DNA of 64,000 bases, taken from NCBI RefSeq assembly GCF_020177595.1, contig NZ_JAHTBL010000001.1, positions 558,001 through 622,000 on the forward strand, given 5' to 3'. Under the pieces are notes generated by a model. The model was not told where the DNA came from and made no database searches. It worked only from the letters and a program-made list of their open reading frames with translations. Source of the DNA: Cognatishimia sp. MH4019. GTDB taxonomy: Bacteria > Pseudomonadota > Alphaproteobacteria > Rhodobacterales > Rhodobacteraceae. The stretch's first letter is position 1; every line of letters begins with the position of its first letter. Shown here piece after piece: positions 29,162-31,761 of this stretch. Made by a program: the position numbers and the translations under genes.

Positions 29162-29195
29162 TGTGTTATAAATAAGGTATATAAATACCCCAGTT

Positions 29196-30596
29196 TTATA
29201 CTGTGATCTGGTCCGTCGGATTATCGAGCAAGCGGCGCAGGATCGCCATCGCCTCGTCAAAGCGTTCTATGGGCATTTGCGCGTTCACGGAAATGCGTAC
29301 CGCGTGTGGGGCGGCTGTATCGCGCATGGCAAACTCATCTGCGGCCCGGATCAAGACACCTTGAGCCTCAGCAGCACGTAGGAAGGCAGGCGCGCGCCAA
29401 CCGGGCGGCAAGGTCAGCCATAAAAACGGCACATCCGCGTGCCAGACGACATTGAACCGGCCCAGATGATTGATCGCGCGTTTGACATAGCGGCCAAGCT
29501 CTTCGCGGATCGCTTCGGTTACGGAACGGGTGCGCGGATCCTCCAGAAGGGAGTGCATCGCCTCAGCCATGGGCCGCGCGAGGGAAAAGAAGCCGTAATT
29601 GCCCACCCGGCGCAGATCGAGATTGCGGGTCTTCGGGGCAATCGCATAGCCGATCCGCAAGGCGGGTGTCATGGTTTTCGAGATCGACGAGATATACCAG
29701 CCCTGATCGGGCAATAGCGCGCGATAGCCCGGCCCTGTGGCCGCGCCCAGCCGGTAGCAATCGTCCTCCAGCACATCGATGCCGGTTTCGCGAATGACGG
29801 CGGCCAGCTCATGGCGCCGTTCAATCGGGGTGGTGATGCCGGTGGGATTATGCACTTCAAGCGTCGTGCACAGAAGTTGCGCATCATGCTGGCGGATCGC
29901 GTCGCGCAGCGCGTCCGGGCGCAGGCCGTGCTCATCCATCGGGACGCCCACGACCTCGGCGCGCAGAAGTTCTGCCGCGCGCCGGAACCCCGCGTAAGAG
30001 ATATCCTCGACCAGAATCACAGGGCGCGGGCCGCGCAGCACGCATTGCATGACCATGCCGATGGCGTTTTGGCCGCCGTGGCTCCAGACGATATCCTCGT
30101 GGTGCACGGGGCCGACCTGCATGGGGTCAAACCAGTTCAAGAGCGCCCTGCGCGCAGGCTCGAAGTCTTCGCGTCGCGGATAGTTCAGTAGGGCGTTTGC
30201 GTCGATCTCGGTGGCGCGGTGCAGATGTTCGCGGATCAGACCCACCTGCCCCATATCGGGCAGTCTGGGAGAGAACAGGGTATAGGTGCCGTCGTTCTGC
30301 TGGGGTTGTACTTGCCGCGCCCAGTTCTGGTCGGCCTCGTGTGCCACAACTTGATCGGCCACGAAGGTGCCGCGGCCTACGACAGCCTGCAGCAGGCCTT
30401 CATCGGTCAGCATCGTATAGGCGCGCGCAACGGTGCCCGGTGTGATCTTGAGATCCCATGCCAGATCGCGGACGGGTGGCAGTTTTGCCCCGGTTTCCAG
30501 CGTGCCATCTGAGATCTGCGACCGGAGCGCTTCTGCCACCGCTTTATACTTCGGCAATTCAGCAAGATCCGGGCTGCTTATCGAAATTGTATCCAT
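29196..30596 (-). CDS. MocR-family (GntR-aminotransferase) regulator
   Basis: 466-residue regulator with an N-terminal GntR winged helix (YKAVAEALRSQISDGTLETG, then LKITPGTVARAYTMLTDEGL) fused to a type-I aminotransferase fold. The PLP lysine is in SSISKTMTPALRIGY (~residue 307 from the chosen start). MocR proteins use PLP-bound ligands to control vitamin B6, GABA or amino-acid genes. The ATG at 30596 lies inside a TGTATCCAT repeat, and the divergent DUF1127 gene shares the regulatory region; a TTG or ATG 8 codons upstream is possible. Confidence 0.9.
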   Translation of the reverse strand: MDTISISSPDLAELPKYKAVAEALRSQISDGTLETGAKLPPVRDLAWDLKITPGTVARAYTMLTDEGLLQAVVGRGTFVADQVVAHEADQNWARQVQPQQNDGTYTLFSPRLPDMGQVGLIREHLHRATEIDANALLNYPRREDFEPARRALLNWFDPMQVGPVHHEDIVWSHGGQNAIGMVMQCVLRGPRPVILVEDISYAGFRRAAELLRAEVVGVPMDEHGLRPDALRDAIRQHDAQLLCTTLEVHNPTGITTPIERRHELAAVIRETGIDVLEDDCYRLGAATGPGYRALLPDQGWYISSISKTMTPALRIGYAIAPKTRNLDLRRVGNYGFFSLARPMAEAMHSLLEDPRTRSVTEAIREELGRYVKRAINHLGRFNVVWHADVPFLWLTLPPGWRAPAFLRAAEAQGVLIRAADEFAMRDTAAPHAVRISVNAQMPIERFDEAMAILRRLLDNPTDQITV

Positions 30597-30639
30597 TACA
30601 ATATATCCATAGACTGACACAAAGACTCTTTGTATCCAT
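30588..30639. promoter_or_regulatory. Direct repeats TRTATCCAT, likely MocR operator
   Basis: Three same-orientation copies: TGTATCCAT 30588-30596, TATATCCAT 30602-30610 and TGTATCCAT 30631-30639, starts 14 and 29 bp apart. They lie between the MocR-family gene and the divergent DUF1127 gene; the first overlaps the MocR start codon. Direct repeats are the usual operator form for MocR proteins such as GabR and PdxR, so autorepression and control of the DUF1127 gene are inferred. Confidence 0.65.
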
Positions 30640-30692
30640 ACATCATAGCAATTGTGCTAATATTGTGTCAATACAATTCGAGGAGACTTCCC

Positions 30693-30926
30693 ATGACACA
30701 TCTGACAACGCCGCACCTGAATGCCCGTCTGGCCTATCTGGCCGACAAGCCGCTCCCTGCCCCTGCGCAGTTTGCGCTCGCGATTGCCGTTGTCTTGGTG
30801 AAATGGGAAGAGCGCCGCCGTTCGCGCATTGCACTGAGCCAACTGGACGACCACCTTCTGGCCGATATCGGCCTGAAGCGGGAGGCCGCTATTCATGAAG
30901 CAGGTCTTCCGTTCTGGCGCCATTGA
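30693..30926 (+). CDS. DUF1127 domain protein
   Basis: 77-residue basic protein ending with the DUF1127 motif (ALSQLDDHLLADIGLKREAA). Some short DUF1127 proteins bind RNA and affect phosphate or carbon metabolism in Agrobacterium and Rhodobacter; a role here is only inferred. ATG at 30693 follows GAGGAGA. Terminator follows. Transcribed divergently from the MocR-type regulator over shared repeats. Confidence 0.88.
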   Translation: MTHLTTPHLNARLAYLADKPLPAPAQFALAIAVVLVKWEERRRSRIALSQLDDHLLADIGLKREAAIHEAGLPFWRH

Positions 30927-30953: not shown

Positions 30954-30979
30954 GGCCGGGGGCAACCCCGGCCTTTTTT
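30954..30979 (+). terminator. Rho-independent terminator of the DUF1127 gene
   Basis: GGCCGGGG-GCAA-CCCCGGCC hairpin followed by six T, 28 bp after the stop. Confidence 0.92.
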
Positions 30980-31143: not shown

Positions 31144-31761
31144 ATGACTGAAATACCCCTCCCCCCCAAATCGAAACGCGCCATCTGGCCAGCTCTTGTT
31201 GTTGCGGCTCTGGTGATTGGGCTGGCGTTTCTGGCGCTCGCGCTGGCTGAAAATGTGGGCACCAACGGCACGCGGGTGCTTAAAGATCCGGCGACGGCCT
31301 ACAAATACCCGATCTTCGCGGGCTTCGTGTCGCATCTGGGGGTCTTTGTGTTGATCGCGGCCTCTGCGGCAACGGGGTTTGCGTCAAGCCTGCGCCCGGC
31401 GCATGCCAAGCGATTGGCGGCGGTGGCGATCCTGTCGCTGCTGCTGGCCTTTGACGATATGTATCTGTTCCACGAACGCGTGGGCCCGTGGCTTTTGGGG
31501 ACTTCGGAAGAGGTTGTGATGCTGGTCTATGCCATCTTCGCGCTGACCATCGCCTTTCAGTTCCGCAAAAGCCTGTTCGCACGCGAGCAGATCCCTCTTG
31601 TGCTGGCTGGCGTGGCGCTTGTGATCTCAATGGTGATCGACATGGATGGCGGTTCAGGTCGGTCGATTGTGTTGGTTGAGGATTTGAGCAAACTGACAGG
31701 ATATGGCCTCTGGTCCGGGTTCTGGCTGACCTTTGCACGCGCCGATCTGCAAGCGTCCTAA
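31144..31761 (+). CDS. Six-pass membrane protein of unknown function
   Basis: 205 residues with about six hydrophobic segments. Charged or His residues lie in or next to membrane segments: FDDMYLFHERVGPW after segment 3, SEEVVMLVYAIFAL in segment 4, MVIDMDGG, and VEDLSKLTGYGLWSGF near the end. Conserved acidic and His residues inside a membrane bundle suggest an enzyme or ion carrier, but I recognise no named family. Its stop overlaps the convergent thioesterase stop by 4 bp. Confidence 0.78.
   Translation: MTEIPLPPKSKRAIWPALVVAALVIGLAFLALALAENVGTNGTRVLKDPATAYKYPIFAGFVSHLGVFVLIAASAATGFASSLRPAHAKRLAAVAILSLLLAFDDMYLFHERVGPWLLGTSEEVVMLVYAIFALTIAFQFRKSLFAREQIPLVLAGVALVISMVIDMDGGSGRSIVLVEDLSKLTGYGLWSGFWLTFARADLQAS

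Follow-up and report, generated by a model that had tools for sequence, protein, structure and literature searches.

The window, i.e. the whole 64 kb stretch of DNA from Cognatishimia sp. MH4019 that was analysed, contains a pair of divergently transcribed genes that code for a MocR-type regulator and a small protein of the DUF1127 family. The regulator gene (mocR; 29196-30596, minus strand) encodes a 466 aa protein that combines a GntR-type winged helix-turn-helix (wHTH) domain (PF00392, residues 16-79, 61.3 bits) with a fold-type-I aminotransferase-like domain (PF00155, Aminotran_1_2, residues 130-451, 84.1 bits), both scores lying above the respective Pfam cut-offs. These are the two domains that define the MocR/GabR subfamily, and the conserved lysine of this subfamily is likewise present: the position of the PLP-binding lysine corresponds by alignment to K307 and is occupied by lysine in all 116 distinct rows of the clade to which the protein belongs (see below). 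GabR itself appears among the solved relatives of the window protein. An alternative in-frame GTG farther upstream would extend the product to 474 aa; the ATG at 30596 is preferred on the basis of the alignment of relatives and the survey of their start codons described below. The regulator is ordinary in kind and well conserved.

The divergent gene (30693-30926, plus strand) encodes a protein of 77 aa that recovered the DUF1127 model (PF06568) with 46.7 bits against a gathering score of 23.3. It is one of four DUF1127 genes in this genome, a family that corresponds to YjiS and COG5457. The protein is characterized by a hydrophobic N-terminal stretch, AQFALAIAVVLV, followed by an Arg-rich domain and a C-terminus of the form PFWRH; an ending with an aromatic residue and W is shared by 98 of 122 partner DUF1127 proteins. 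Judging from its sequence, an association of the protein with the membrane is possible. The gene is followed by a terminator-like hairpin of 8 pairs, all G-C, with a T tract (30954-30973, plus strand), which suggests that the transcript comprises a single gene. The stretch 31144-31761 codes for a hydrophobic protein of 205 aa, for which searches of Pfam and NCBIfam recovered nothing at E<=0.001 and tblastn against the 80 named loci yielded zero matches.

Architecture of the intergenic region

Three elements, here termed A, B and C, are found around the region between the two genes. Operator A (ATTGTGTCAATACAAT, 30662-30677) is an inverted repeat of the form ATTGT-N6-ACAAT situated directly 5' of the ribosome-binding site of the DUF1127 gene; it is stronger than the repeats described in the first-pass annotation of this DNA, which had missed it. 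Box B (30630-30636, minus strand) is a GATACAA half site, and operator C (ATTGTATCCATTACAAT on the plus strand, 30586-30602) is an inverted repeat of the form ATTGT-N7-ACAAT with the start codon of mocR in its spacer. These elements may be read as three GATACAA-type boxes in the same orientation on the mocR strand, namely the right arm of A, B itself and the right arm of C, with the left TTGT arms making inverted repeats of A and C. Measured between the GATACAA units on the mocR strand of the window, A and B are separated by 33 bp, and B and C by 43 bp.

A sigma-70 promoter of mocR was predicted at 30642-30671 (minus strand; TTGACA-18-TATGAT, with a TG ahead of the -10 element), which agrees with the consensus at 11 of 12 positions. 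Its -35 box is contained in operator A. Box B would lie just downstream of the predicted -10 element, and C would reach the start codon with its right arm. No plus-strand promoter was called for the DUF1127 gene in the promoter prediction of the window. A further inverted repeat, ACAAAG-ACT-CTTTGT (30619-30633), overlaps box B; it occurs in the window and in two relatives (G001 and G002), and is a genus-level feature.

Conservation of the gene pair and its probable operator

A profile of 17 relatives, with matches accepted at E<=1e-90, was run against 295 sampled genomes of the family and recovered this MocR in 127; upstream regions were obtained from 126 of these, the remaining one (G147) being omitted on account of a match that lacks the N-terminus. 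A divergent DUF1127 ORF is present in 123 of the 126 regions. The three exceptions are a region at a contig edge (G241), one with what by eye appears to be a C-terminal remnant of a DUF1127 gene (G102) and one in which none was found (G073). As 47 sequences from this very set had served to train the DUF1127 HMM, which was applied only to upstream stretches of about 1.2 kb, checks with the Pfam DUF1127 model were added: of the 41 genomes searched, 12 carry the clade and all 12 gave a match adjoining the MocR, and all 10 partner proteins tested passed the model. The wider neighborhood is also retained: of the 80 named loci, 77 have DUF1127 upstream of mocR and 74 have rplM on its downstream side.

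The operator elements are similarly widespread. TTGT-N7-ACAA occurs at the mocR start in 120 and TTGT-N6-ACAA in 95 of the 126 regions, against a mean of 0.3-0.4 and at most 2 genomes in shuffles that, like those for the box and -10 counts below, preserve base composition only; the same motif with spacers of 4, 5, 8 and 9 nucleotides was found in 0, 2, 0 and 0 regions. The conserved unit is GATACAA/TTGTATC inside TTGT-N6/7-ACAA, and not TRTATCCAT. For the statistics on the boxes, the 6 regions without TTGTN7ACAA were dropped, followed by another 2 whose A score was below 10 of 14, which reduced the 120 left to 118. In 94 of these a B box with at least 6 of 7 matches to GATACAA is located between A and C, against 15 of 118 after shuffling; the box is exact (7/7) in just 50. 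In 73 of the 120 regions a box with at least 6 of 7 matches has a spacing of exactly 43 bp to the C arm. In the 94 regions with a B box the spacing from A to B is 18-20 (8 regions), 29-34 (77) or 41-44 bp (9), and that from B to C is 30-32 (5), 42-44 (81) or 54-57 bp (8). These spacings jump by about one helical turn, which fits boxes that are kept on one face of the DNA, as suits MocR proteins; motif boxes one or several helical turns apart are described as a general rule for MocR regulators (PMC5320631, section 9). In 117 of the 120 regions an in-frame start codon is offset by 0, +2 or +5 relative to the TTGT in C; in the other 3 it is at -4. The -10 element of mocR is clear in the window itself. 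Among relatives, one scoring at least 4 was seen in 26 of the 118 regions against 14 after shuffling, and one scoring at least 5 in 10 against 1; from these counts a general -10 element throughout the relatives could not be firmly established.

The sequence TTGTRTYRAYACAAT has a single full match in the window's own genome, at operator A, and two further sites elsewhere if one mismatch is allowed, while the looser TTGTN6ACAAT shows no excess genome-wide (5 places versus 6 rows for the control). Exact TTGTRTYGAYACAA was recovered from 18 of 61 relatives, comprising 14 of the 18 genomes that carry the clade described below and 4 others. Each of these 14 genomes has it at the mocR-DUF1127 locus alone, and in one of the 4 others (G037) it adjoins that genome's own DUF1127-linked MocR.

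Relationship to the EnuR/EhuR regulators

The best NCBIfam model for the window protein is EhuR (NF052286), with a score of 265.7 bits against a curated cut-off of 480, and the inverted repeat at 30662-30677 has the form of the EnuR/EutR operator consensus, ATTGTn6ACAAT (ATTGTnnnnnnACAAT), given in the relevant passage of PMC8739950. It is conceivable, therefore, that the protein is EnuR/EhuR itself, the repressor of ectoine catabolism of Ruegeria pomeroyi and Sinorhizobium meliloti, with which it shares the operator form and the PLP lysine, and that the DUF1127 gene is one member of an ectoine regulon. In a tree of 58 rows (HMM-chosen frames, quick search without bootstrap, SH-aLRT support) the DUF1127-linked rows constitute one clade (33 rows, support 100) that is nested in an EnuR/EhuR superclade (48 rows, support 100), but stands apart from the ectoine EnuRs and from YjiR of E. 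coli; one 'ehu' row, L065, falls outside. Thus, the window MocR is a member of a separate clade that is paralogous to the ectoine EnuR.

The distribution of EutD cuts both ways. Of the 18 genomes with the clade in the set of 61, 9 gave no match to TIGR02993 at E<=1e-80, including the window's own genome (G000), G001 and G002, whereas the other 9 have one. EutD scores above the model cut-off in three clade genomes. Two of these (G015 and G028) encode, some 6.5 kb from eutD, a protein that exceeds the EhuR cut-off, along with a DUF1127-linked paralogue elsewhere, which speaks against identity with EnuR/EhuR; the third (G033) has such an EutD yet no EhuR above the cut-off, which weighs against a clean separation.

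A comparison of the predicted inducer-pocket residues of EnuR is likewise mixed. Among the 116 distinct clade rows the Asn244 position is N in 113, Lys302 is K and Arg429 is R in all 116, Phe417 is F in 97 and Y in 19, and Ser431 is replaced by A in 103, while the position of Ser104 is ambiguous in the clade alignment. With the Asn, Phe/Tyr and Arg pocket positions mostly retained, a ligand related to that of EnuR is conceivable. The Ala412 position is distinctive: every one of the 116 rows has Arg or Lys there, whereas five EnuR-like proteins show A, A, A, A and T and another 11 likewise lack Arg/Lys. This residue raises the possibility that the sensed amine is acidic; in the EnuR paper, however, Ala412 is given a peripheral rank and described as frequently Leu. 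Arg/Lys at this position is not a mark of all DUF1127-linked MocRs, as T, G, A, A and V occupy it in the five that lie beyond the clade. The region of the recognition helix also differs, being TPGTVARAY in the window protein against SVHTVSKAY, SVQTVSRAY and SLQTVSRAY in three EnuRs. All told, we regard identity with the ectoine repressor as unlikely.

Several MocRs of the superclade that lie outside the clade also face a DUF1127 gene, namely those of G037, G043 (two copies), G047 and G019, amounting to 5 of 16 'ehu' rows. Two of them, one in G043 (L299) and one in G047 (L300), score above the EhuR cut-off, and no EutD match at E<=1e-80 was found in either genome (93% and 77% complete, respectively). 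The DUF1127 link may therefore be older in the superclade than the ectoine role, and labels of the EhuR/EutR type might include regulators without ectoine genes, in which case the EhuR label would be over-reaching. We tentatively suggest, at somewhat less than even odds, that the distinct clade senses an amine and has essentially one target, DUF1127, by way of a link that perhaps predates ectoine control in the superclade. As Ala412 ranks as peripheral and 9 of the 18 clade genomes have an EutD match, we place less weight on this suggestion and more on identity with EnuR. A second EhuR-like MocR of G001 (L274, in the stretch 433000-441000, 463 bits) lies beside a gene for an EamA-type transporter; no DUF1127 gene was found in this 8 kb stretch.

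Proposed mechanism and functional implications

The above architectural and phyletic observations lead us to propose, with a probability of about three in four, that the intergenic region is the operator and promoter region of two divergent genes, that of a MocR repressor under autoregulation and that of its target, DUF1127. We infer that a MocR dimer would bind across A, B and C, thereby masking its own -35 box and start region, and that the DUF1127 gene would be controlled from A. The ligand-free protein would repress both promoters, in the manner of an autorepressor of the GabR/EnuR type. Formation of an external aldimine between an amine and the PLP on K307 might then change the dimer such that transcription of DUF1127 is either released or activated.

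GabR of Bacillus subtilis offers a precedent for a divergent arrangement, for autorepression and for direct repeats separated by about three turns, which the window pair shares, with autorepression as part of the model. The target of GabR, in contrast, is a metabolic operon, whereas that proposed for the window regulator is a single gene for a small protein. The yjiR-yjiS pair of E. coli K-12 also consists of divergent, adjacent MocR-type and DUF1127 genes, but YjiR falls outside the superclade in the tree, and TTGT-N6/7-ACAA is by eye absent from the intergenic region of that pair.

Alternatively, the sites could serve the autoregulation of mocR alone, with DUF1127 as a bystander retained by synteny. 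Two of the sites, B and C, are on the side of mocR and the third, A, overlaps its -35 box, the locus is syntenic down to rplM, and much of the conservation could be explained by autoregulation alone. However, the position of A immediately before the DUF1127 ribosome-binding site, the near-universal retention of DUF1127 in the surveyed regions and its recurrence opposite MocRs outside the clade speak for a target rather than a bystander. The G073 region, in which a DUF1127 gene was not found, has also lost the C repeat and has an imperfect A, although this is a single case judged by eye. We consider a mere bystander to be about as improbable as the ectoine repressor. It is far less probable that the inverted repeats work in RNA, as hairpins that hide the start codons. 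C spans a start codon and by itself can fold into a hairpin of 6 pairs (-1.7 kcal/mol, z -3.26), but in context both leaders are no stabler than their shuffles (z -0.03 and -0.65), A covers the -35 box and hence lies outside the predicted mocR mRNA, and the helical phasing of the boxes suits binding to DNA.

If the clade indeed senses an amine and has DUF1127 as essentially its one target, a metabolite signal would be wired directly to a small regulatory protein rather than to a metabolic operon. The reported roles of DUF1127 proteins include RNA turnover in Rhodobacter, phosphate signalling in Agrobacterium and virulence in Salmonella. CcaF1 of Rhodobacter sphaeroides is cited as binding RNA in a passage of PMC11707872, where YjiS of Salmonella is reported not to be an RNA binder, so that RNA binding is not a family-wide property; the Agrobacterium proteins are described as acting via the kinase PhoR (PMC12501420). 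Controllers are known for some DUF1127 proteins, e.g. RpoHI/RpoHII for RSP_0557. Through a conserved regulator that senses a ligand and apparently has a single target, the signal acting on another member of the family would become directly accessible.

The first-pass annotation had not seen a link of this kind described, but one between mocR and DUF1127 is already in print as a prediction: Suvorova and Rodionov (2016; PMC5320631) place COG5457, named as a 'YjjS-related' target, in most Rhodobacterales 'EutR' regulons, and section 12 lists it there and in other MocR regulons. Our literature search found no paper that names 'MocR' together with 'DUF1127'. The defining feature of these EutR/COG5457 regulons is found here, i.e. 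a site of the EutR type upstream of a COG5457 (DUF1127) gene, and the regulator type, the TTGT...ACAA palindrome and the target are shared. In PMC5320631 the target is placed under the ectoine regulator, whereas the window presents a separate paralogous clade, a three-box operator and a repeat that coincides with the start codon. The division into paralogues and the location of the start codon were not found in the main-text passages of that paper and would go beyond the printed prediction.

The TRTATCCAT direct repeats

The first-pass annotation had drawn attention to three direct repeats, TRTATCCAT, as a typical MocR operator. The three copies exist with the offsets of 14 and 29 bp that it gave: TGTATCCAT at 30588-30596, TATATCCAT at 30602-30610 and TGTATCCAT again at 30631-30639, all read on the plus strand. 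The first spans the mocR start codon (ATG, minus strand, 30596-30594), as stated, and is included in operator C; the third overlaps box B. These are the only three exact matches within the window (expected 0.23), and the 9-mer occurs 13 times in the whole genome against 7 times for a reversed-pattern control, with 3 of the 13 at this locus. The repeats as a mere chance cluster can be practically dismissed, as none of 100 dinucleotide shuffles of the window reached three matches and the box at 43 bp is widely kept, even if chance might still account for the middle copy.

The proposal that this is the operator region of the gene pair stands in part. The first and third copies (starting at 30588 and 30631), which are 43 bp apart, both belong to the conserved operator and look like direct-repeat boxes of the MocR type, and they are conserved where the gene pair occurs, but the dominant elements are inverted repeats together with one half site. 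An operator made of direct repeats only was rejected, with exact ATGGATACA, the repeat as read on the mocR strand, in 47 of 126 regions versus the much more frequent TTGT-N7-ACAA. The middle copy did not hold up as an operator box, being fully matched in just 2 of 120 regions. At least 7 of its 9 positions match in 27 of 120 regions against 1 after shuffling, which is attributed to a purine-rich ribosome-binding site, a Shine-Dalgarno-like sequence, that relatives have at the same position.

At the other end of the regulator gene, right behind the mocR stop codon and upstream of rplM-rpsI, lies a palindrome, GGGTATTTATATACC (29176-29190, minus strand). The form GGGTATN4ATACC also follows mocR directly in five relatives (G001, G002, G008, G015 and G034), and GGTATn2-6ATACC is present in 28 of the 74 gaps between mocR and rplM in the named loci; from its sequence this palindrome could possibly be an operator for some unrelated regulator.
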